A stretch of DNA of 64,000 bases, from assembly GCF_009659625.1 (NCBI RefSeq), contig NZ_VOIW01000007.1, positions 372,001-436,000 on the forward strand, written 5' to 3'. Shown here piece after piece: positions 4,063-29,643 of this stretch (positions are counted from its first letter, which is position 1; every line of letters starts with the position of its first letter). The translations under genes were made by a program, and so were the position numbers. Source of the DNA: Pseudomonas haemolytica (GTDB taxonomy: Bacteria; Pseudomonadota; Gammaproteobacteria; Pseudomonadales; Pseudomonadaceae). The notes beneath the pieces are model-generated. The model saw only the letters and a list, made by a program, of their open reading frames with translations, was not told where the DNA came from and made no database searches.

Positions 4063-4956
4063 ATGTTCGACTATAAATTGCTGTCTGCCCTGGCGGCGGT
4101 GGTGGAACAGGCTGGCTTTGAACGCGGTGCCCAGGTGCTGGGGTTGTCGCAGTCGGCCATCTCCCAACGCATCAAGTTGCTGGAGGCGCGCATCGGGCAG
4201 CCGGTGCTGGTACGTGCCTCGCCGCCGACGCCCACCGATATCGGTCGGCGCCTGCTCAACCATGTGCAACAGGTGCGCTTGCTCGAACGTGACCTGCAAA
4301 GCCAGGTGCCGGCCCTTGATGAAGAGGGCATGCCCGAGCGCCTGCGTATCGCCCTGAATGCTGACAGCCTTGCCACCTGGTGGGCCGAGGCCGTCAGCGA
4401 TTTCTGTGCCGAACAGCATTTGTTGCTGGACCTGGTGGTGGAAGACCAGACTGTCGGCCTCAAACGCATGCGTGCCGGTGAAGTGGCGGCCTGTATCTGC
4501 GCCAGCGAGCGCCCGGTGGCCGGCGCTCGCAGCCTGTTGCTGGGCGCCATGCGTTATCGGGCGCTGGCCAGCCCAGCCTTTATAGCCCGGCATTTTCCCG
4601 AGGGCGTGCGGGCGGACCAATTGGCACGCACGCCGGCGCTGGTGTTCGGCCCGGATGACTTCCTGCAACACCGTTACCTGGCCTCCCTCGGGGTGGACGG
4701 TGGTTTCGAACACCATTTATGCCCCTCATCTGAAGGCTTTATCCGCCTGACGGAAGCCGGCCTGGGTTGGGGCCTGGTGCCTGAATTGCAGGTGCGCGAC
4801 CAGTTGGAAACCGGCGTATTGGTCGAGTTATTGCCAGATAAGCCCATCGACGTGCCGCTGTACTGGCATCATTGGCGCAGTGGCGGGCAACTGTTGGGCT
4901 TGTTGACCGACCATCTGGCCCAGGCGTGTGGTCAATGGTTGGTGCCGTTGGAGTAG
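4063..4956 (+). CDS. argP: ArgP/IciA-type LysR regulator
   Basis: LysR-family transcriptional regulator of 297 residues. N-terminal winged helix-turn-helix (about 3-60; QVLGLSQSAISQRIKLLE), then a periplasmic-binding-like effector domain. The N-terminus MFDYKLLSALAAVVEQAGFERGA is typical of ArgP, which activates argO in response to arginine and is antagonised by lysine in E. coli. It is divergent from the ACT-argO operon across a 100-base intergenic region holding the presumed operator. Confidence 0.9.
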   Translation: MFDYKLLSALAAVVEQAGFERGAQVLGLSQSAISQRIKLLEARIGQPVLVRASPPTPTDIGRRLLNHVQQVRLLERDLQSQVPALDEEGMPERLRIALNADSLATWWAEAVSDFCAEQHLLLDLVVEDQTVGLKRMRAGEVAACICASERPVAGARSLLLGAMRYRALASPAFIARHFPEGVRADQLARTPALVFGPDDFLQHRYLASLGVDGGFEHHLCPSSEGFIRLTEAGLGWGLVPELQVRDQLETGVLVELLPDKPIDVPLYWHHWRSGGQLLGLLTDHLAQACGQWLVPLE

Positions 4957-5008
4957 CGGCGGACGTCAAGGCAACAGCGATGAAAAACGAAAGAACACGG
5001 AGTACTAC

Positions 5009-6007
5009 ATGAAAATTCTGGTCACCGGCGCAAGCGGCTTCATCGGCGGGCGCTTTGCGCGTTTCGCCCTTGAGCAGGGCCTGGGTGTGCGGGTCAACGG
5101 GCGGCGCGCCGAAGGTGTGGAACACCTGGTACGGCGCGGTGCCGAGTTTATCCAGGGTGATTTGAATGATGCCGACCTGGTACGCGACCTGTGCCGCGAT
5201 GTCGAAGCCGTGGTGCATTGCGCCGGTGCCGTTGGGCTATGGGGCAAGTATCAGGACTTTCATCAAGGCAATGTGCTGGTCACCGAAAACGTCGTTGAAG
5301 CCTGCCTCAAGCAGCGCGTCGGGCGCCTGGTGCATCTGTCGTCGCCGTCGATCTACTTCGATGGCCGCGACCACGTGGGGCTCACCGAAGAGCAGGTGCC
5401 CAAGCGTTTCAAGCATCCCTATGCCGCGACTAAATACCTGGCCGAGCAGAAGGTCTTCGGTGCCCAGGAGTTCGGCCTTGAAGTGCTGGCGCTGCGCCCG
5501 CGGTTTGTCACCGGTGCCGGCGACATGAGCATCTTCCCGCGCCTGCTGAAGATGCAGCGCAAAAATCGCCTGGCCATTGTCGGCGACGGCCTGAACAAGG
5601 TCGACTTCACCAGCGTGCACAACCTTAACGAAGCACTGCTCAGCAGCCTGCTCGCCCCCGGCTCGGCGTTGGGCAAGGCCTACAACATCAGCAATGGCGC
5701 GCCGGTGCCGGTGTGGGATGTGGTCAACTATGTGATGCGGCAAATGGAGTTGCCTCAGGTGACCCGTTACCGCTCCTACGGTTTGTCCTATAGCGTAGCG
5801 GCCCTGAATGAAGCCTTCTGCGCGATGTGGCCGGGGCGGCCCGAGCCGGCCTTGTCGCGCCTGGGCATGCAAGTGATGAACAAAGATTTCAGCCTCGATA
5901 TCAGCCGCGCCAGGCATTATCTCGACTACGAGCCCAAGGTCAGCCTGTGGGCCGCGCTCGACGAGTTCTGCAGCTGGTGGAAGGCCCAGGACCCGGGCCT
6001 CAAATAA
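5009..6007 (+). CDS. NAD(P)-dependent epimerase/dehydratase (extended SDR)
   Basis: Extended short-chain dehydrogenase of 332 residues. The N-terminal Rossmann motif is GASGFIGG (about residues 7-14), and the catalytic YxxxK is YAATK within HPYAATKYLAEQK. An SSPS segment carries the catalytic Ser. The family includes 3-beta-hydroxysteroid dehydrogenase-like enzymes and sugar epimerases; the substrate cannot be read. It corresponds in position to PA4361 in the bifA-sodB-argP neighbourhood. ATG at 5009 is chosen because MKILVTGASG begins the Rossmann strand directly; upstream in-frame codons overlap the argP end. Confidence 0.85.
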   Translation: MKILVTGASGFIGGRFARFALEQGLGVRVNGRRAEGVEHLVRRGAEFIQGDLNDADLVRDLCRDVEAVVHCAGAVGLWGKYQDFHQGNVLVTENVVEACLKQRVGRLVHLSSPSIYFDGRDHVGLTEEQVPKRFKHPYAATKYLAEQKVFGAQEFGLEVLALRPRFVTGAGDMSIFPRLLKMQRKNRLAIVGDGLNKVDFTSVHNLNEALLSSLLAPGSALGKAYNISNGAPVPVWDVVNYVMRQMELPQVTRYRSYGLSYSVAALNEAFCAMWPGRPEPALSRLGMQVMNKDFSLDISRARHYLDYEPKVSLWAALDEFCSWWKAQDPGLK

Positions 6008-8575: not shown

Positions 8576-9862
8576 ATGAACGCGATTAATCGCCTCGCCG
8601 TCGCTATTTCCATTGCCTCGTTATTTCCCCTCAGTGCATTTGCCGCCGACTCGAAAGGAACGGTTGAAGTGGTGCATTGGTGGACCTCCGGCGGTGAAAA
8701 AGCGGCTGTGGATGTCCTGAAGGCCCAAGTTGAGAAAGACGGCTTCACCTGGAAAGACGGTGCCGTTGCAGGTGGCGGTGGCGCCACCGCCATGACCGTG
8801 CTGAAAAGCCGTGCGGTCGCCGGCAACCCGCCAGGCGTTGCCCAGATCAAAGGCCCTGACATCCAGGAATGGGCGTCCACCGGCCTGCTCGACACCGACG
8901 TGCTCAAAGACGTCGCCAAAGAAGAAAAGTGGGACTCCCTGCTCGACAAGAAAGTCTCCGATACCGTGAAATACGACGGTGATTACGTTGCCGTACCGGT
9001 GAATATTCACCGTGTGAACTGGTTGTGGATCAACCCGGAAGTCTTCAAGAAAGCCGGTATCACCAAGAACCCCACCACCCTCGAAGAATTCTATGCGGCC
9101 GGCGACAAGCTCAAAGCCGCGGGCTTCATTGCGCTCGCCCATGGCGGCCAGCCTTGGCAGGACAGCACCGTGTTCGAAGCGGTGGTTCTGTCGGTGATGG
9201 GTGCCGATGGCTACAAGAAAGCCCTGGTCGACCTGGATAACGGTGCACTGACCGGTCCGGAAATGGTCAAGGCACTCACCGAGCTTAAGAAAGTCGCGAC
9301 CTATATGGACGTCGACGGCAAAGGCCAAGACTGGAACCTCGAAGCAGGCAAGGTCATCAACGGCAAGGCCGGCATGCAGATCATGGGTGACTGGGCCAAG
9401 TCCGAGTGGACCGCGGCCAAGAAAATCGCCGGCAAGGACTACGAGTGCGTAGCCTTCCCTGGCACCGACAAAGCCTTCACCTACAACATCGACTCCCTGG
9501 CGGTGTTCAAGCAGAAAGACAAAGGCACTGCTGCTGGCCAGCAAGACATCGCCAAAGTCGTGCTGGGTGAAAACTTCCAGAAAGTCTTCAGCATCAACAA
9601 GGGCTCGATCCCTGTTCGCACCGACATGCTCACTGAAATGGACAAGCTCGGTTTCGACTCCTGTGCCCAGACTGCCGCCAAGGACTTCCTGGCCGACGCC
9701 AAGACCGGCGGCCTGCAGCCAAGCATGGCCCACAACATGGCCACCACCCTGGCGGTACAAGGTGCGTTCTTTGATGTCGTGACCAACTACATCAACGACC
9801 CGAAAGCCGACCCGGCCGATACCGCCAAAAAACTTGGCGCGGCGATCAAGTCGGCCAAGTAA
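8576..9862 (+). CDS. gtsA: glucose/mannose ABC transporter, substrate-binding protein
   Basis: Periplasmic sugar-binding protein of the CUT1 family, 428 residues. A signal peptide ends at AFA (about residue 23) before the mature [17 protein letters not shown]. The [17 protein letters not shown] opening and the [14 protein letters not shown] segment are typical of glucose-binding proteins of this group. It is followed by two permeases, an ATPase and the porin oprB, so it captures glucose (and perhaps mannose) delivered by OprB. A strong hairpin directly after the gene probably protects its mRNA so the binding protein is made in excess. Confidence 0.95.
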
Positions 9863-9879
9863 CGGTTAGCACTGCTGGT

Positions 9880-9914
9880 CCTTGTGAGGGGAAACCCCCT
9901 GACCCCTCACAAGG
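9880..9914 (+). promoter_or_regulatory. intercistronic hairpin between gtsA and gtsB
   Basis: A perfect 12-bp stem (CCTTGTGAGGGG / CCCCTCACAAGG) with an 11-base loop starts 18 bases after the gtsA stop. No U-run follows directly, so it is more likely an mRNA-stabilising or partial-attenuation structure than a full terminator. Confidence 0.7.
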
Positions 9915-9954
9915 CATGCTTCTGTAGTCCTTTTTCCCTGTACTGGATTTTCCC

Positions 9955-10863
9955 ATGAGTTCTGTTGCTGTGTTCAGCAAGGCCTCGCCGTTCGATGCAC
10001 TGCAGCGCTGGCTCCCTAAACTGGTGCTGGCGCCCAGCATGTTCATCGTGCTGGTGGGCTTTTATGGCTACATCCTGTGGACGTTCGTGCTGTCGTTCAC
10101 CACCTCCACGTTCCTGCCCAGCTACAAGTGGGCGGGCCTTGCGCAGTACGAGCGGTTGTTCGACAACGACCGTTGGTGGGTAGCGAGCAAAAACCTGGCC
10201 GTGTTCGGCGGTATGTTCATTGGCATCACCCTGGTGATCGGCGTGACGCTGGCGATTTTCCTCGACCAGAAAATCCGCCGTGAAGGCTTTATCCGCACCA
10301 TTTACCTGTACCCGATGGCGCTATCGATGATCGTCACGGGTACCGCCTGGAAATGGCTGCTCAACCCGGGCATGGGCCTGGACAAACTCCTGCGTGACTG
10401 GGGCTGGGAAGGCTTTCGTCTCGACTGGCTGATCGATCCGGACCGCGTGGTTTACTGCCTGGTGATTGCCGCCGTGTGGCAAGCCTCCGGTTTTATCATG
10501 GCAATGTTCCTCGCCGGCCTGCGTGGCGTCGACCAGTCGATCATCCGTGCTGCCCAGATCGACGGTGCCAGCCTGCCGCGCATCTATTGGAGCGTGGTGC
10601 TGCCCAGCCTGCGCCCGGTGTTCTTCAGTGCGGTGATGATCCTGGCGCATATCGCGATCAAGAGCTTCGACCTGGTCGCGGCAATGACCGCGGGTGGCCC
10701 GGGCTATTCGTCCGACCTGCCCGCCATGTTCATGTACTCGTTCACCTTCAGCCGCGGCCAGATGGGCATGGGTTCGGCCAGTGCAATCCTGATGCTGGGT
10801 GCGATCCTCGCGATCATCGTGCCGTACCTGTATTCCGAGCTGAGGACCAAGCGCAATGACTAG
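9955..10863 (+). CDS. gtsB: glucose ABC transporter, permease 1
   Basis: Inner-membrane permease of the MalF type, 302 residues with about six hydrophobic helices. The cytoplasmic EAA-type loop (RAAQIDGASLPRIYWSVVLPSLRP) contacts the ATPase. Its 3' end overlaps gtsC by eight bases, indicating translational coupling. It forms the import channel with GtsC. Confidence 0.94.
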   Translation: MSSVAVFSKASPFDALQRWLPKLVLAPSMFIVLVGFYGYILWTFVLSFTTSTFLPSYKWAGLAQYERLFDNDRWWVASKNLAVFGGMFIGITLVIGVTLAIFLDQKIRREGFIRTIYLYPMALSMIVTGTAWKWLLNPGMGLDKLLRDWGWEGFRLDWLIDPDRVVYCLVIAAVWQASGFIMAMFLAGLRGVDQSIIRAAQIDGASLPRIYWSVVLPSLRPVFFSAVMILAHIAIKSFDLVAAMTAGGPGYSSDLPAMFMYSFTFSRGQMGMGSASAILMLGAILAIIVPYLYSELRTKRND

Positions 10864-11701
10864 TCTCGCTGCCAAACCTGCCATTAGCCTGAGTCGCATC
10901 GCGATCTACGCGGTGCTGATCCTCGCGGTGCTGCTGTACCTGGTACCGCTGGTGGTGATGCTGCTCACCAGCTTCAAGACCCCGGAAGATATCAGCACCG
11001 GCAACCTGCTGAGCTGGCCGACTGTGGTCAGCGGTATCGGCTGGGTCAAGGCCTGGGCTACCGTGGATGGCTACTTCTGGAACTCGATCAAGATCACCGT
11101 TCCGGCAGTGCTGATTTCCACCGCCATCGGTGCCTTGAACGGCTATGTGCTGTCGTTCTGGCGCTTCCGGGGTTCGCAGCTGTTCTTCGGCCTGTTGCTG
11201 TTCGGCTGCTTCCTGCCGTTCCAGACCGTGCTGCTGCCGGCGTCGTTCACCCTCGGCAAGATGGGCCTGGCCAGCACCACCACCGGCTTGGTATTTGTGC
11301 ACGTGGTCTACGGCCTGGCGTTCACCACGCTGTTCTTCCGTAACTATTACGTGAGCATCCCGGATGCGCTGATCAAGGCGGCACGCCTGGACGGTGCGGG
11401 TTTCTTCACCATCTTCCGCCAGATCATTCTGCCGATGTCGACGCCGATCATCATGGTCTGCCTGATCTGGCAGTTCACCCAGATCTGGAACGACTTCCTG
11501 TTTGGCGTGGTGTTCTCCAGCGGTGACTCCCAGCCCATAACGGTGGCGCTGAACAACCTGGTCAACACCAGCACCGGGGCCAAGGAATATAACGTGGATA
11601 TGGCGGCGGCGATGATCGCCGGGCTGCCGACCCTGCTGGTCTATGTGATCGCAGGCAAGTATTTCGTGCGCGGCCTCACGGCCGGCGCGGTCAAGGGGTA
11701 A
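10856..11701 (+). CDS. gtsC: glucose ABC transporter, permease 2
   Basis: Inner-membrane permease of the MalG type, 281 residues. The EAA loop KAARLDGAGFFTIFRQIILP and the short C-terminal end FVRGLTAGAVKG are typical of CUT1 second permeases. It overlaps the end of gtsB and is followed two bases later by gtsD. Confidence 0.94.
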   Translation: MTSLAAKPAISLSRIAIYAVLILAVLLYLVPLVVMLLTSFKTPEDISTGNLLSWPTVVSGIGWVKAWATVDGYFWNSIKITVPAVLISTAIGALNGYVLSFWRFRGSQLFFGLLLFGCFLPFQTVLLPASFTLGKMGLASTTTGLVFVHVVYGLAFTTLFFRNYYVSIPDALIKAARLDGAGFFTIFRQIILPMSTPIIMVCLIWQFTQIWNDFLFGVVFSSGDSQPITVALNNLVNTSTGAKEYNVDMAAAMIAGLPTLLVYVIAGKYFVRGLTAGAVKG

Positions 11702-23265: not shown

Positions 23266-24954
23266 ATGCAACCTGATTTCTGGAATGACAAACGCGCGGC
23301 GGGCGTGCCCAATGCCATCGACCTCACGACTTACAAGTCGGTGATCGAGGTCTTCGAGCGTTCCTGCAAGACCTTTGCCGACCGTCCGGCGTTCAGCAAC
23401 ATGGGCATTACCCTGACCTACGCCGAGCTTGAACGCCAGAGTGCGGCGTTCGCCGGTTACCTGCAACAGCACACCGACCTCAAGCCCGGCGAGCGCATCG
23501 CAGTGCAGATGCCCAACGTGCTGCATTACCCGGTTGCGGTTTTCGGCGCACTGCGGGCCGGGCTGATCGTGGTCAATACCAACCCGCTGTATACCCCGCG
23601 CGAAATGCGCCACCAGTTCAAGGACGCGGGCGTACGGGCGCTGGTCTACCTCAACCTGTTCGGGGCGCGGGTGCAGGAGGTCTGTACCGATACCGAGATC
23701 GACTACCTGATCGAAGCCAGGATGGGCGACTTCATGCCCGCCGCCAAGGGCTGGCTGGTCAACACTGTGGTCGACAAGGTAAAGAAGATGGTCCCGGCCT
23801 ACCGCCTGCTACGGGCGGTGTCGTTCAAGCGCGCCTTGCGCATGGGCGCGGGCCTTGGGGTGACGCGGCATCCGGTGGCCCTGGACGATATCGCCGTGCT
23901 GCAATACACCGGTGGCACCACCGGCCTGGCCAAGGGCGCGATGCTCACCCACGGCAACCTGGTGGCGAACATGCAGCAAGTGCGCGCGTGCATGTCGCAA
24001 CTGGGCGAAGACGGCCATCCGCTGGTCAAGGATGGGCAGGAGGTGATGATTGCGCCGCTGCCGCTGTACCACATCTATGCATTCACGGCGAACTGCATGT
24101 GCATGATGGTGTCGGGCAACCACAACGTGCTGATCACCAACCCACGGGACATTGGCGGTTTTATCAAGGAGCTCAAGCAGTGGCGGTTCTCCTGCCTGCT
24201 GGGGCTCAACACCCTGTTTGTGGCATTGATGGATCACCCGGATTTCAAGACCCTGGATTTTTCTCATCTCAAGATCACCAACTCCGGCGGCACCGCCCTG
24301 GTCAAGGCCACGGCGGAACGCTGGAAGGCGCTGACCGGCTGTTCCATCGGCGAAGGCTACGGCCTCACCGAAACCTCACCGGTGGCCAGCACCAACCCGT
24401 ACGGCGGCCTATCGCGCCTGGGCACCGTGGGTATCCCGGTGCCGGGCACGGCGATGAAAGTCATTGATGATGAGGGGCACGAACTGCCGTTGGGCGAGCG
24501 CGGCGAGCTGTGCATCCAGGGCCCGCAGGTGATGAAGGGCTACTGGCAGCAGCCGGTTGCCACCGCCGAGGCCCTGGACGCCGAAGGCTGGCTCAAGACC
24601 GGTGACATTGCGGTGATCGATACCGATGGCTACGTCAGCATTGTGGATCGCAAGAAGGATTTGATCATCGTCTCGGGCTTTAACGTGTACCCCAACGAAA
24701 TCGAAGACGTGGTCATGGCCCACCCGGCCGTGGCCAACTGCGCGGTGATCGGCGTGCCGGATGAGCGTACGGGGGAGGCGGTAAAGCTGTTCGTCGTGGC
24801 GCGAGCCCAGGGGGTGACCCTTGAGGAGTTGAAGGCGTACTGCAAGGCCAACTTCACCGGCTATAAGGTGCCCAAGCATATTGTGCTGAGGGAGTCATTG
24901 CCGATGACGCCGGTGGGCAAGATCCTGCGGCGGGAGCTGCGTGACAGCGCCTGA
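23266..24954 (+). CDS. fadD2: long-chain acyl-CoA synthetase FadD2
   Basis: Activates fatty acids to acyl-CoA with ATP; cytoplasmic and membrane-associated; 562 residues. AMP-binding P-loop YTGGTTGLAKGAMLTH (about 214-229), motif GYGLTETSP, and VDRKKDLIIVSGFNVYPNEIE carrying the fatty-acid signature are intact. In Pseudomonas it is normally directly followed by fadD1; here 3 kb of accessory DNA intervenes. The order hydrolase(-)/fadD2-fadD1(+) identifies it as the fadD2 homologue. Confidence 0.93.
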   Translation: MQPDFWNDKRAAGVPNAIDLTTYKSVIEVFERSCKTFADRPAFSNMGITLTYAELERQSAAFAGYLQQHTDLKPGERIAVQMPNVLHYPVAVFGALRAGLIVVNTNPLYTPREMRHQFKDAGVRALVYLNLFGARVQEVCTDTEIDYLIEARMGDFMPAAKGWLVNTVVDKVKKMVPAYRLLRAVSFKRALRMGAGLGVTRHPVALDDIAVLQYTGGTTGLAKGAMLTHGNLVANMQQVRACMSQLGEDGHPLVKDGQEVMIAPLPLYHIYAFTANCMCMMVSGNHNVLITNPRDIGGFIKELKQWRFSCLLGLNTLFVALMDHPDFKTLDFSHLKITNSGGTALVKATAERWKALTGCSIGEGYGLTETSPVASTNPYGGLSRLGTVGIPVPGTAMKVIDDEGHELPLGERGELCIQGPQVMKGYWQQPVATAEALDAEGWLKTGDIAVIDTDGYVSIVDRKKDLIIVSGFNVYPNEIEDVVMAHPAVANCAVIGVPDERTGEAVKLFVVARAQGVTLEELKAYCKANFTGYKVPKHIVLRESLPMTPVGKILRRELRDSA

Positions 24955-24972
24955 TTTGAAATAGGGTCAAAA

Positions 24973-25009
24973 TGTGGGAGGGGGCTTGCCCTAATGCCGG
25001 TCAGTTAAG
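24973..25009. repeat. REP, left outer flank of the cargo
   Basis: TGTGGGAGGGGGCTTGCC followed by ATGCCGGTCAGTTAAG. The same 37-base unit recurs inverted at 27641-27677 with a few changes, so the two units originally formed one pair between fadD2 and fadD1. Confidence 0.85.
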
Positions 25010-25023
25010 CGTGCATCGCCCTC

Positions 25024-25113
25024 TGTAGGAGCGAGCTTGCTCGCGAAAAACCTCAACGATAACGCGTGCTTCATGAATGAACGCGGCGCCTGTGAGTTTT
25101 TCGTGAGCAAGCT
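25024..25113. repeat. truncated REPIN of a second family
   Basis: Begins TGTAGGAGCGAGCTTGCTCG and returns as an inverted arm GAGTTTTTCGTGAGCAAGCT, but stops at 25113. The missing end (CGCTCCTACA) is found 2.5 kb away at 27625-27634. Confidence 0.82.
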
Positions 25114-25267
25114 GTGAGGGGGTGAGAGATATGGCACTAAAGGAAACTGGTGGGAAGAAGAGGGAAGAAAACGGGCAAGCCAGGAAAGGCGGGCTCTGAA
25201 CGGATCAGAAAGGGCTAATCAGTGCCAAAAGGGGCGCGAAGTCGAAAAACAACCGAAACCAACAAAG

Positions 25268-25290
25268 AGCCCGCATTTAGCGGGCTTTTT
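25268..25290 (+). terminator. Rho-independent terminator in cargo
   Basis: AGCCCGC-ATTTA-GCGGGCT with five T residues. It follows about 150 bases without a recognisable gene (25114-25267), so it may end a transcript whose gene has been deleted. The rest of the gap up to 25473 shows nothing further except the ribosome-binding site of the next gene. Confidence 0.75.
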
Positions 25291-25472
25291 GGCACTTGGG
25301 CTTTAGATCATCCAACCGCCTGACCAGACCACCCGCCCCACTAGCCGACCATACGCGCAGCATGCAAGAAGATCGGGACATTTATAACAAGCACGACCAT
25401 GGTAGTGGCCGCAAGCCATCGCCAATCCAATAGTATTCTGGTATTCATTGGGGCTCATAAAGGAGATCCCAT

Positions 25473-26279
25473 ATGGATAGTGCGCGCTGTACCGTGAACA
25501 ACACTGATTACACAGGCGTAGGTTTTGCCGCTTTGCCTGAGGCTGAAAGGGCAGACTATCGGCGGCATTTGGTTTGTGTGATGTGCGGGACGAAAGCCTA
25601 TTTTCGTAAAGAGGCTAGTAGCGGACAGGGGCCTTGCTTTGGAGCAAGACCCCACGCGAACTGCGTGCTAGCTACCGTTGAGTCGGCTCGTGGAATGGGT
25701 GGGAACAATGAAGAGAATGCTCTTCATAATCCTGGTACTCGCATCGTTTTAGATGAGGCTCAAGGGGCCGCCGAAATTGTTAATGGTGATCCTGGAGAGC
25801 CTGGCGGAGCAGGCGCGGGAGGTAGGCGCTTTACTGGCGATGGTGGACGGCCCAATGCTGTATCACGCAAACGACTAGGGCCGTTACTTAAAACTCTTAT
25901 TTATGAACCAGCCTTTAGAACTTCAACAGTCTATGTTGAGATTCCTGGAAGAGACACCAGGCCCGCCCGTGACCTGTTCGTCAATTTCTCCGATGTTAGT
26001 CAGTGCCAGCCACACACCTTATATGGGTTCTGGGGCGTTATTTACGACACCGGCTATGGTAACGATGGCACTCTTTGGGTGAACACAGGCGAATGGGAAG
26101 ATGTCAGTGTTGCAATTGATCCTACGGACGTTGCCCCATTTTTGACTCGACACAAAACAACTGTGGCAAACCTTGATGGGGCGCACATTTTAGTTTTTGG
26201 CACTACTTTTAAGGCAGGAAGCGGTAAGCAAATCATCAAGCCGTCTTCTGTTCAGCTCACTGCATTGAACGAAGATTAA
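25473..26279 (+). CDS. unrecognised 268-aa protein with putative zinc-binding N-terminus
   Basis: Intact cargo gene, not recognised. Residues 35-65 contain CVMCG, then CFGARPHANC: a Cys-x2-Cys followed by a Cys and a His-x2-Cys, with spacing compatible with one zinc site. A Gly/Pro-rich linker (about 105-125, GDPGEPGGAGAGG) follows. The C-terminal 140 residues are predicted beta-rich (TSTVYVEIPGRD, LYGFWGVIYDTGYG, THIL-type strands) and could be an OB-like or other beta fold. There is no signal peptide or membrane segment. A perfect AAGGAG site seven bases before ATG indicates active translation. Base composition is more AT-rich than flanking genes, suggesting transfer. It could be a phage-borne accessory or defence gene; this is speculative. 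Confidence 0.7.
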   Translation: MDSARCTVNNTDYTGVGFAALPEAERADYRRHLVCVMCGTKAYFRKEASSGQGPCFGARPHANCVLATVESARGMGGNNEENALHNPGTRIVLDEAQGAAEIVNGDPGEPGGAGAGGRRFTGDGGRPNAVSRKRLGPLLKTLIYEPAFRTSTVYVEIPGRDTRPARDLFVNFSDVSQCQPHTLYGFWGVIYDTGYGNDGTLWVNTGEWEDVSVAIDPTDVAPFLTRHKTTVANLDGAHILVFGTTFKAGSGKQIIKPSSVQLTALNED

Positions 26280-26339
26280 CTTGCTACCTTAAAGCCGAGC
26301 GAAACTCCGCCCCGTATTAATGCGGGGCATCCTGCTTCT

Positions 26340-26648
26340 ATGGACGCATGCATAAACCCAATCACTGGCGACCTGACGGGCCCGCGTATCAATACGCTCG
26401 GCAACGCCGTTTACATCCGCCTCATGACACCCCTCGGCACCTGGGGGAAAGACACCACTGTGGGCTCGCGTCTGCATGAGCTGAAACGCTCCAAAGACCT
26501 GCCGCGGGTCTGCAAACTCGCCAAGCGATAAGCCGAGCAGGCGCTCCAGCCGCTGCTCGATGACGGCCGCGCCCAGGACATCACCATCACCGTCGAGCAG
26601 CCCCACAACGGCTGGCTCAATCTGCAAATCGACATCACCGAACGGTAG
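26340..26648 (+). pseudogene. phage tail protein gp46-like, broken by a nonsense codon
   Basis: Reads as a full gp46-type baseplate protein of Mu-like phages and tailocins: MDACINPITGDLTG, RLMTPLGTWGKDTT and SRLHELKRSKD in the first half; AEQALQPLLDDGRAQDITI in the second. A TAA at 26529-26531 interrupts the frame exactly where relatives usually carry Tyr before AEQAL; the frame then stays open to TAG at 26646. One TAC-to-TAA change explains it. Baseplate J and gp48-type genes that normally follow are absent. Confidence 0.78.
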
Positions 26649-26649
26649 C

Positions 26650-27083
26650 GTCTGGGTGCATCATGACACTTCTAAAGCAGCATCTACCCTCACGGTCAGT
26701 CAAGGCCAAGTCAGGATTAGGAGTGTCGCTGCTGGTGCCAATCCTATTGCCTGGGTAACAGACTCCCCTGTCTGGCATAACGCCGCAGTGACAACCAGCC
26801 TCTCAAGTAGCCTGGGAATTCTGGCACTACGAATGGATGGATGCAGCAAGTGTTTGAGGTAACAGAAAGCGCCTCTGCCGCCGACTATCGGTACTTCCCT
26901 TTAGAGTTCCCTACCGGAGTCTTTGGGGTATTTCCAGTATTGCTCAGCAGCACGGTTGGCTCCGGCTGGGGAACGAATGTCGGTGTGGTAACTGGGAGTT
27001 GGGACAAGCAAAAATTCTTATTGAATGGAGGTGGTTCCTTCAGCAGTGAAGGCCGCTTCCGTATTTTGGCTTTGGGGTGGTGA
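26650..27083 (+). pseudogene. phage tail fibre C-terminal fragment, frameshifted
   Basis: Two overlapping reading frames together look like a tail fibre end. Frame one carries HHDTSKAASTLTVSQGQ to ILALRMDG; frame two carries MQQVFEVTESASAADYRYF to the terminal GRFRILALGW. The switch falls at a short ATGG tandem (about 26833-26843), where loss of one 4-base unit would explain it. Only the C-terminal part survives, directly abutting gp46, so the intervening tail genes were deleted. Confidence 0.6.
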
Positions 27084-27085
27084 TC

Positions 27086-27546
27086 ATGTCTCAGGTGTAT
27101 TTCAGTCCGTCCACGACTACATTTTCCGCACCGACACGCATGGCGTGCCTGGAAGCGAGCGCTGCAAGATGCCTTCTGATGTCGTGGAAGTCTCCCAGAA
27201 CGTGTTTGAAGCAATGTCAGAAGCGCGCTCCCAAGGCATGCGCTTAGTTGCTGACGGCGATGGTAAACCTACCGCTATTCAGCGATTGGCACCAACGGCC
27301 GCAGAACTGGCTGACAATGAGCGACTGTGGCGGAACGGTGAGATAAGCAGTACAGAGTGGCTGGTCGCTCGTCACCGCGATGAGATAGACATGGCTAAAG
27401 TGCCGACTATCGCAATTGAAAGGTTCGTCGACCTATTGGATTATCGCCAGCTTCTTAGAGATTGGCCGTCATCTGTTGGCTTCCCGAAGGTCTCCAAGCG
27501 CCCACAAGCGCCCGACTGGCTAGCTGCCGCGTTGGTTGCTGAGTAA
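27086..27546 (+). pseudogene. phage tail fibre assembly chaperone, frameshifted
   Basis: Starts MSQVYFSPSTTTF in one frame, the usual opening of Pseudomonas tail-fibre assembly proteins. It continues in another frame as RTDTHGVPGSERCKMPSDVVEVSQ to WRNGEISSTEWLVARHRDEIDM and YRQLLRDWPSSVGFP. Restoring one T in the TTTT run at 27122-27125 joins the two halves without loss. It follows the fibre remnant by two bases, the normal fibre-chaperone order. Confidence 0.75.
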
Positions 27547-27618
27547 CCGACCCGAGATGGCTGCTTATGCGGTGCCATACTTCCCGCTAGACCGTGCCAA
27601 ATCCGACGCTCGCTTACA

Positions 27619-27634
27619 CAAGCTCGCTCCTACA
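27619..27634. repeat. right half of the split REPIN
   Basis: CAAGCTCGCTCCTACA completes the arm truncated at 25113. It lies inside the right outer REP, mirroring the left side. Confidence 0.8.
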
Positions 27635-27640
27635 AAAAGC

Positions 27641-27677
27641 CTTAGCTGACTGGCATTGGGGCAAGCCCCCTCCCACA
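27641..27677. repeat. REP, right outer flank of the cargo
   Basis: Inverted partner of 24973-25009 (CTTAGCTGACTGGCATTGGG then GCAAGCCCCCTCCCACA). The remaining 275 bases to fadD1 contain only its promoter/leader region. Confidence 0.85.
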
Positions 27678-27902
27678 GTTGTTATTTGTCGCCCGTAAGG
27701 CCCATTCCAGAGCGGCTTTCATTGATATAGAATTTTTGCTCTAAAAATGACCATTGCGTATTCTTGAGTCATGTTTATGACTGTAGGGCCCTCTTTTGGC
27801 TCTAGGCGGCCCTTGGCAAAGCTGCTACTCTCGGCGCGCTTTGTGACGTCTCGGCCTGCTTGAAAGCGCCAGATTCACCTTAAAAAACATACACCAATAA
27901 TA

Positions 27903-27919
27903 ATCGCATCAAATGCGAT
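27903..27919 (+). promoter_or_regulatory. leader hairpin of fadD1
   Basis: ATCGCAT-CAA-ATGCGAT, a 7-bp stem 33 bases upstream of the start codon, preceded by AATAATAAT, which fits the Crc/Hfq AANAANAA motif. Likely post-transcriptional control of fadD1. Confidence 0.45.
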
Positions 27920-27951
27920 GATGAATTCGCGTCGCTGAGGAGTGGGCTTCC

Positions 27952-29643
27952 ATGAACGAAGACTTTTGGAAGGATAAGTACCCCGCCGGGATTGCTGCAG
28001 AGATCAATCCAGACGAGTATCAAAATATTCAGGCGGTACTGAAGCAGTCCTGCCAGCGCTTCGCCAACAAACCGGCTTTCAGCAACCTGGGCAAGACAAT
28101 CACCTACGGTGAACTGTACGAATTGTCCGGCGCTTTCGCCGCCTACCTGCAACAGCATACCGACTTGAAGCCTGGCGATCGAATCGCTGTGCAACTGCCC
28201 AACGTCCTGCAATACCCGGTTGCCGTGTTCGGCGCCATCCGTGCGGGCCTGATCGTGGTCAACACCAACCCGCTGTATACCGCGCGGGAAATGGAACACC
28301 AATTCAATGATTCCGGGGCCAAGGCCCTGGTTTGCCTGGCCAACATGGCGCACCTGGCTGAAAAAGTCGTGCCCAAGACCGCCGTCAAGCATGTGATCGT
28401 CACCGAAGTCGCCGACCTGCTGTCGCCGTTCAAGCGCCTGCTGATCAACAGCGTGATCAAGTACGTGAAGAAGATGGTCCCTGCTTATCACTTGCCCCAG
28501 GCGATCAGGTTCAACGACGTACTCGCCAAGGGTCATGGCCAGCCGGTCAACGATGCCAGCCCGGCCAGCAGTGATGTCGCCGTGCTGCAATACACCGGCG
28601 GCACCACTGGCGTGGCCAAGGGCGCGATGCTGACCCATCGCAACCTCGTCGCCAACATGCTGCAGTGCAAGGCACTGATGGGCTCCAACCTCAACGAGGG
28701 CTGCGAGATCCTGATCACGCCGCTGCCGCTGTACCACATCTATGCCTTCACCTTTCATTGCATGGCGATGATGCTGATTGGCAACCACAACATCCTGATC
28801 AGCAACCCGCGCGACCTGCCGGCGATGGTCAAGGAACTGTCGAAGTGGAAGTTCAGCGGCTTTGTCGGCTTGAACACCCTGTTCGTGGCGCTGTGCAATA
28901 ACGAAGCCTTCCGCAAGTTGGACTTTTCCGCGCTGAAGGTCACCCTGTCGGGCGGTATGGCCTTGCAACTGGCAGCGGCAGAGCGTTGGAAGGCCGTGAC
29001 CGGCTGTGGCATCTGCGAAGGCTACGGCATGACCGAAACCAGCCCGGTGGCCACGGTGAACCCGATCCAGAATATCCAGATCGGTACCATTGGCATTCCG
29101 GTGCCGTCCACGGTGTGTAAAGTCATCGCCGACGACGGCACCGAACTGGCTCTGGGCGAAACCGGCGAGCTGTGCGTCAAGGGCCCGCAGGTGATGAAGG
29201 GCTACTGGCAGCGCGAAGACGCCACTGCCGAGATGCTCGACAGCGAAGGCTGGCTGAAGACCGGCGACATCGCGATCATCCAGCAAGACGGCTACATGCG
29301 CATTGTCGACCGCAAGAAAGACATGATTCTGGTCTCCGGCTTCAACGTCTACCCCAACGAACTGGAAGACGTGCTGGCGACCCTGCCGGGCGTGCTGCAA
29401 TGCGCGGCCATCGGTGTGCCGGACGAGAAGTCCGGCGAGCACATCAAGATCTTCATCGTGGTCAAGCCAGGGGCTACCCTGACCAAGGACCAGGTGATGG
29501 AACACATGCGCGCCAACGTCACCGGCTACAAGGTGCCCAAGGCCGTGGAGTTCCGTGATGCGCTGCCGACCACCAACGTGGGCAAGATCCTGCGGCGTGA
29601 ATTGCGCGATGAAGAGTTGAAGAAACTCGGTCTTAAAAAGTAA
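27952..29643 (+). CDS. fadD1: long-chain acyl-CoA synthetase FadD1
   Basis: 563-residue paralogue of FadD2 with the same motifs: YTGGTTGVAKGAMLTHRN, GYGMTETSP and VDRKKDMILVSGFNVYPNELE. It activates long-chain fatty acids in beta-oxidation. Start at 27952 (MNEDFWKDKYPAG), with GAGG upstream. Because the cargo and a terminator lie upstream, it must use its own promoter in the 27680-27950 region. Confidence 0.94.
   Translation: MNEDFWKDKYPAGIAAEINPDEYQNIQAVLKQSCQRFANKPAFSNLGKTITYGELYELSGAFAAYLQQHTDLKPGDRIAVQLPNVLQYPVAVFGAIRAGLIVVNTNPLYTAREMEHQFNDSGAKALVCLANMAHLAEKVVPKTAVKHVIVTEVADLLSPFKRLLINSVIKYVKKMVPAYHLPQAIRFNDVLAKGHGQPVNDASPASSDVAVLQYTGGTTGVAKGAMLTHRNLVANMLQCKALMGSNLNEGCEILITPLPLYHIYAFTFHCMAMMLIGNHNILISNPRDLPAMVKELSKWKFSGFVGLNTLFVALCNNEAFRKLDFSALKVTLSGGMALQLAAAERWKAVTGCGICEGYGMTETSPVATVNPIQNIQIGTIGIPVPSTVCKVIADDGTELALGETGELCVKGPQVMKGYWQREDATAEMLDSEGWLKTGDIAIIQQDGYMRIVDRKKDMILVSGFNVYPNELEDVLATLPGVLQCAAIGVPDEKSGEHIKIFIVVKPGATLTKDQVMEHMRANVTGYKVPKAVEFRDALPTTNVGKILRRELRDEELKKLGLKK

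Follow-up and report, generated by a model that had tools for sequence, protein, structure and literature searches.

An open accessory gene in the remnant of a Mu-like tail operon of Pseudomonas haemolytica: a candidate stand-alone nucleic-acid-binding moron with a possible anti-phage role

Why does one gene remain whole where the phage genes on either side of it have fallen apart? The question is raised by an open reading frame of Pseudomonas haemolytica located in a 64,000-nucleotide stretch of DNA (the whole of which is referred to here as the window; assembly GCF_009659625.1, contig NZ_VOIW01000007.1, positions 372,001 to 436,000 of the forward strand). A preliminary description had regarded this frame as an intact orphan gene with a putative zinc finger, lying among decayed phage cargo genes and presumably kept by selection, as expected of a useful accessory or defence function. 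We have examined this proposal by computational analyses of the gene, its homologues and their genomic surroundings, and the features of the locus are summarized in Table 1.

The frame itself is well supported. It begins with an ATG at position 25473 on the plus strand, its stop codon ends at 26279, and a run of 268 open codons in one frame would arise by chance with a probability of about 4e-6 for this base composition. The same reading frame is common to the homologues, and the register-matched frame of the opposite strand contains eight stops. The strong ribosome site and the CxxC...C...HxxC pattern that had been reported are likewise present, the latter consisting of Cys 6, 35, 38, 55 and 64 together with His61. 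The gene has a higher AT content than the DNA around it (GC content 51%, with 43% at third positions, vs. 59% for the window), and no Rfam match was found in the region 24900-28000.

Table 1. Features of the inserted prophage scrap and of the accessory gene that it carries (positions in the window).
Feature	Coordinates	Strand	Basis or remark
Whole inserted scrap	24992..27657	.	fadD-like intergenic region of G004, G017 and G067 without it
Mu-like spike gene (gp45/gpV-like), last 30 codons only	25341..25430	+	
Shine-Dalgarno AAGGAG	25460..25465	+	7 nt upstream of ATG
Accessory gene (moron), 268 aa	25473..26279	+	frame, ribosome site, homologues in same frame
N-terminal zinc-type domain, residues 1-66	25473..25670	+	Cys/His conservation, AlphaFold model
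Gly-rich linker, residues 69-127, mostly low-confidence, probably disordered	25677..25853	+	AlphaFold model
Predicted C-terminal OB fold, about residues 168-268	25974..26276	+	AlphaFold, Foldseek, VIA
GC-rich hairpin	26309..26328	+	3' junction of slot
gp46-like baseplate gene, in-frame stop, 3' end lost	26340..26642	+	
Tail fibre gene, C-terminal piece, frameshifted	26640..27083	+	
Tail fibre assembly gene, frameshifted near start	27086..27546	+	

The gene lies within an insert of about 2.7 kb that is flanked by two fadD-like ligase genes. Relatives (e.g. G067 and G004) possess the same two flanks with approximately 50 bases between them, and the same insertion was absent from the matches listed from 115 relatives. 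What the insert preserves is a fragment of the tail operon of a Mu-like phage, most of which has been deleted. Its nearest phage record is MT121968 (93% for gp46 and 86-87% for the fibre and assembly part), in comparison with which a 2.9 kb deletion joins gp46 to the fibre gene, and there is one net frameshift in the fibre remnant and another in the assembly gene; the assembly gene looks open in the list of reading frames only because its start is in another frame. The window's gp46 has no other match elsewhere in the same genome. The neighbours are thus broken as described, with lesions in the spike, gp46, fibre and assembly genes, but they are tail genes and not cargo. Two short sequences at the left of the insert also deserve mention. 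The segment 25018-25113, just inside the left edge, has further occurrences in the same genome and in other Pseudomonas genomes and may have helped deletion or insertion. The adjoining segment 25113-25343, left of the spike remnant, resembles DNA of G038 contig 92 and G025 contig 1, both of which also bear Mu-like tail genes, and it is probably phage-derived as well.

The position of the gene between the spike gene and gp46 is shared with the viral contig L018, whose gene is 67% identical and in which a block of 64.7% DNA identity to the window extends from the end of the spike gene into gp46. A copy of 51% identity in G037 (L034) is likewise followed by the start of gp46, in a decayed state. 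No gene is present at the spike-gp46 junction in L069, L070, L072, L073, L112, L113 or the closest phage (MT121968, the same as L114); in L071 a spike gene upstream of gp46 was not found. Other frames are seen in this slot as well. In the Mu-like tail operon of L068 it holds a different 245-aa gene (5036-5773, minus strand), which matches phrog_26561 (function undefined; E 9.5e-28) and has no Pfam or PADLOC match, and in L074 it is occupied by a frame of 87 codons (4716-4979, minus strand) with no Pfam match. The gene is therefore an extra gene between phage genes that adjoin in relatives, viz. a moron and not a structural gene; and because the slot is empty or filled with other frames in related phages, a tail can be made without the gene and the slot is a cargo site. 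That the product forms part of the phage tail or helps to assemble it, as the same-strand location within the tail operon could suggest, is highly improbable: the gene is missing from this slot in related operons, it occurs on plasmids and at sites in chromosomes near which no tail genes were seen, and our searches matched it with no structural protein of a phage.

The gene is also not an orphan. Counting matches with E values up to 0.001 and including the window's own genome each time, homologues are present in 14 of 398 Pseudomonas genomes (i.e. 13 others, 12 of them with solid relatives), 3 of 99 genomes of the bacterial family, 5 of 369 of the class and 3 of 299 of the phylum, as well as in 4 of 50,697 phage records, all from Vibrio. 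Among 72,556 plasmid records 13 match at E up to 1, one of these only at E 0.07. A search with the relative L028 adds a Micrococcus plasmid, and the family is also found on contigs of temperate phages and on plasmids of actinobacteria. The nearest relative found for the window gene is 67% identical, the next-best copy among the 398 Pseudomonas genomes having 51% identity. The L020 gene, used in a DNA search, has no match in 5,426 E. coli genomes, and searches of viral contigs with the L031, L017 and L020 proteins brought no confirmed relative to light. This thin and patchy spread is as expected of a mobile accessory gene, and the accessory nature proposed for the gene is borne out by its slot in a tail operon and its copies on phages and plasmids. 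Its family is one of cargo genes borne by phages and plasmids. None of the Pfam, PADLOC, NCBIfam and PHROG models scores over threshold for the window protein, and our literature search, from whose reach most subscription papers lay outside, found no description of such a family.

Thirty loci were compared, viz. the window, L016-L024, L034-L050 (L041 being counted with L040) and L123-L126; further matching plasmid and Vibrio phage records were left out. L052 is the same contig as L016, and L051 is G099. L043 encodes the same protein as L123, and the two, which are probably one prophage, are counted twice in the 30. The rows left out were G099 (E 1e-7, with tblastn of its region empty at E 1), G416 (8e-4), G691 (8.3e-4) and, among plasmids, the Vibrio record matching at E 0.07. 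Homologues that were mostly broken would have spoken against a useful function, and clearly broken copies were found at only 3 of the 30 loci (L045, L049 and L050); in addition, the L040/L041 copy runs off contig ends and that of L024 departs from the others at its C-terminus.

What the protein may do is best approached through its domains. Across 21 rows Cys6, Arg30, Cys35, Cys38, Phe56 and Cys64 are invariant and position 55 is Cys or His. An AlphaFold model (16 rows, mean pLDDT 75) predicts a small N-terminal domain, a low-confidence stretch within residues 69-127 and a C-terminal block (131-268, pLDDT 78-94) containing an OB fold. Conservation and model together support the zinc-type domain and the separate fold in about 130-268 that had been anticipated. 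In Foldseek and VIA-align comparisons the C-terminus groups with the OB folds of tRNA synthetases, telomere/RPA proteins and HIN domains. The best VIA row has a Z of 9.8 but an rmsd of 7.2, and the next rows have Z of 9.0-9.5 with an rmsd of 2.5-3.2 over 86-93 residues; since the best Z in the absence of a clear match is typically 7 to 8, values of about 9 are only moderately above this level. The likeness to RPA/Teb1, AsnRS/AspRS and HIN-type OB folds comes with 3-16% identity in the rows given, and sharing an OB fold shows no function. The N-terminal residues 1-96 predicted alone reach a pLDDT of 67, and searches with this domain brought up nothing in the PDB at E 0.001 (the best E being 0.64) and no VIA row whose Z reached 2, which is no proof of a new fold. 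A PDB search by sequence returned five SERBP1 chains on the Gly-rich linker at E about 0.06, and a PDB search with the family profile returned none. The protein may thus bind zinc and nucleic acid, and no catalytic motif was seen in it, so that it has no obvious killing or cutting activity.

The CxxC...[H/C]F...C layout of the N-terminal region resembles that of the CoiA N-terminal domain (PF25164, CoiA_N). In a profile comparison by hhalign, for which CoiA_N members were collected from genomes (of 15 loci retrieved, the 10 that yielded the motif entered the comparison), the motif aligns in register with a score of 12.5, vs. a maximum of 6.8 in 20 column shuffles, at a probability of 1.2%; L012 and L013 have HFCAH at the place of the CoiA motif. 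No family member exceeds the Pfam cut-off for CoiA_N (1 of 21 matches at E 0.13), and the model has no match in the window's genome. The likeness is hence a lead and not membership. For CoiA a PD-(D/E)XK nuclease domain is described (PMC1189080), whereas the C-terminal half of the window protein is modelled as an OB fold in its place, and no nuclease family is among the Pfam matches of the family members.

Another weak resemblance is to PflM (DUF5447) of Pf phages, like the window gene's product a phage-borne Pseudomonas protein, which aligns at residues 27-64 around the Cys cluster (E 0.13). This match, together with the integrases that adjoin some copies, could indicate a PflM-like regulator of lysogeny acting on its own phage. 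We consider such a role quite unlikely: the match scores 13.2 bits vs. a cut-off of 27, the family is wider than the pseudomonads to which DUF5447 is described as confined (PMC11112994), and its occurrence on plasmids and in a tail operon is ill-suited to an element-specific regulator.

Additional domains are limited to individual members. DUF1508 is found in 1 of 21 (E 3.9e-14), by sequence the fused L025, and lies in an extra tail, as do the matches to phrog_1422 in L025 and to phrog_17986 in L011. The latter homologue (L042: 9310-10401, minus strand) has a C-terminal extension that holds the motif HPDKN, matches phrog_17986 at E 2.3e-8 and is perhaps a J domain; the DnaJ model weakly matches 1 of 21 members (E 0.013). 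DUF7455 matches 3 of 21 members, with a best E of 0.0011.

The homologues often lie in prophages or have defence-type genes as neighbours. Phage or prophage settings are seen at 11 of the 30 loci (the window, L018, L019, L034, L036, L043, L044 and L123-L126, the last four being viral contigs). The copies of L019 and L044 adjoin an integrase, and L036 has an integrase and a methylase nearby. In L044 (around 9168-11536) the homologue lies between a tmRNA and a phage integrase, as cargo at what is likely an attachment site. Four copies (L020-L023) are on conjugative plasmids. Defence-type genes occur within about 5 kb at 12 of the 30 loci, a count from hand-picked neighbours with no random-locus control. 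They comprise OloAB about 60 bp away (L047), Gabija GajAB (L022), type I RM and Abi by record annotation (L021), PD-T4-5/AbiD (L020), DarT-NADAR (L042), Abi_C (L046), TOTE primase-helicase (L016, L017 and L045), a cytosine methylase with an AAA protein (L034), a methylase (L036) and PDC-S36/NOV_C (L019). The PADLOC screen of neighbours covered 20 hand-picked proteins, 19 of them neighbours; identification was by eye for the integrases of L125 and L126 and for several further neighbours. No recognised defence gene was seen at 18 of the 30 loci, and at 10 (L023, L024, L035, L037-L040 and L048-L050) neither such a gene nor a phage setting was seen. The family members themselves match none of the PADLOC-DB 2.0.0 models (to 2023) at E up to 1 (0 of 21).

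Island pieces recur in L016, L017, L040 and L045, viz. HATPase-like, winged-helix and DUF1508 genes, the family gene and a TOTE primase-helicase, although not every part is present in each. In L045 the family gene is cut and fused to DUF1508 while the TOTE gene is long and open, so that the two need not act together.

These surroundings would also be explained if the protein served counter-defence, shielding the DNA of an entering phage or plasmid against the restriction systems or nucleases of the host. Copies are present in phages, 9 of the 13 matching plasmid records are typed conjugative, and restriction systems lie next door to some copies; the predicted OB fold resembles those that bind ssDNA, and phage ssDNA-binding proteins are among the weak structural matches. 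Anti-restriction genes are usually found among the early or leading genes of an element. The Mu-like copy, unlike these, is in a late tail operon, and several chromosomal copies occur without any complete element being seen; on the whole we regard a counter-defence role as unlikely.

Has the window copy been kept by selection, or has it simply not yet been broken? Purifying selection is clear at the level of the family, with dN/dS of 0.03 (L008/L009) and 0.24 (L016/L017) and a pN of 0.12 vs. a pS of 0.85 (L027/L031). A dN/dS of the window copy against L018 is unusable, synonymous sites being saturated. Small lesions number 3 in 1,211 bp of neighbouring genes and 0 in the 804 bp of the gene, which has a chance of 0.22 at equal rates. 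If all eight one-base gaps relative to MT121968 are taken as lesions the chance falls to 0.01, but six of the eight lie in close opposite pairs and were taken as harmless or as alignment effects. The other 13 rows, from which L016 and L009 are omitted as near-duplicates, share 25 conserved positions, and at none of these does the gene have a private change, vs. 4 at 42 in the window's gp46, a difference that is not significant (P 0.29); intact gp46 genes have 0 to 4 such changes, L073 and L074 having 4 at 44 each. In relative-rate tests against L018 with 8 outgroups, the window copy has a significant excess of changes with three (22 v 9, 24 v 9 and 17 v 7), and the other five give no clear difference, ranging to 14 v 21. 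The argument from persistence amid decay to selection is thus plausible but statistically weak (P about 0.2), with mixed relative rates, and selection may have kept the window copy.

The same data bear on the view that the gene once served the phage and that the window copy is a relic without present function. The lesion count at equal rates, the excess of changes with some outgroups and the existence of broken copies elsewhere are all compatible with such a passenger; the unchanged conserved positions, the low chance obtained with all eight gaps (each with the reservation given above) and a second copy, in G037, that is also whole beside a decayed gp46 tell against it. We judge a passenger improbable, to about the same degree as counter-defence.

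The reading that we favour, with a confidence somewhat short of even, is that the gene is a stand-alone nucleic-acid-binding accessory moron, most likely anti-phage in function, that has outlasted its Mu-like phage. The stand-alone binder is suggested by two probable nucleic-acid-binding modules, the flexible linker, the lack of an enzymatic motif, the solo occurrence of the gene and its settings. According to this proposal, a Mu-like Pseudomonas phage would have carried the gene as self-contained cargo between its spike gene and gp46, and the gene would have survived when most of the phage was deleted. Its product, probably a non-enzymatic binder in which a flexible linker connects a CoiA-like zinc domain with an OB fold, might engage with its two domains the DNA or RNA of an infecting phage, or a complex on it, and thereby block the replication, expression or packaging of a competing phage, so that the lysogen or host would be protected. 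The slot and the family, its purifying selection and the predicted fold are results of computation, whereas the binding of zinc and of nucleic acid and the anti-phage role are proposals built upon them. A search for promoters of the sigma-70 type near the gene gave nothing either in the window or in L018, which counts against this reading, as a promoter would be expected of a gene active in a prophage.

A precedent is provided by Tab, a moron of the P. aeruginosa Mu-like phage JBD26 that is described as anti-phage and located in the late gene operon (PMC10884400). The two are likened by description, both being morons of Mu-like Pseudomonas phages in a late operon. Tab differs from the window gene in having 83 residues and lying between terminase genes, and it is described as blocking tail assembly (PMC10884400); by analogy, a gene of such a kind in such a place can be a defence gene. 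A more specific version of the proposal, which we hold only tentatively and with less confidence than the general one, is that the family constitutes a single-gene, enzyme-free anti-phage system (CoiA-like zinc domain plus OB fold) that is spread by phages and plasmids, is parked by Mu-like phages in a tail-operon cargo slot and grips a DNA or RNA intermediate of the invader. If the anti-phage role is true, a non-enzymatic domain pair would be added to the defence repertoire, and the retention of a single gene after the loss of the surrounding phage would be explained.

The slot between the gp45-like and gp46-like genes of Mu-like phages could be mined for more genes of this kind. At its 3' junction in the window lies the GC-rich hairpin of Table 1, which is of ordinary stability (z -1.45; 19 of 200 shuffles fold equally well), and sequence resembling it can be recognised by eye ahead of gp46 in L018, L068 and L074.
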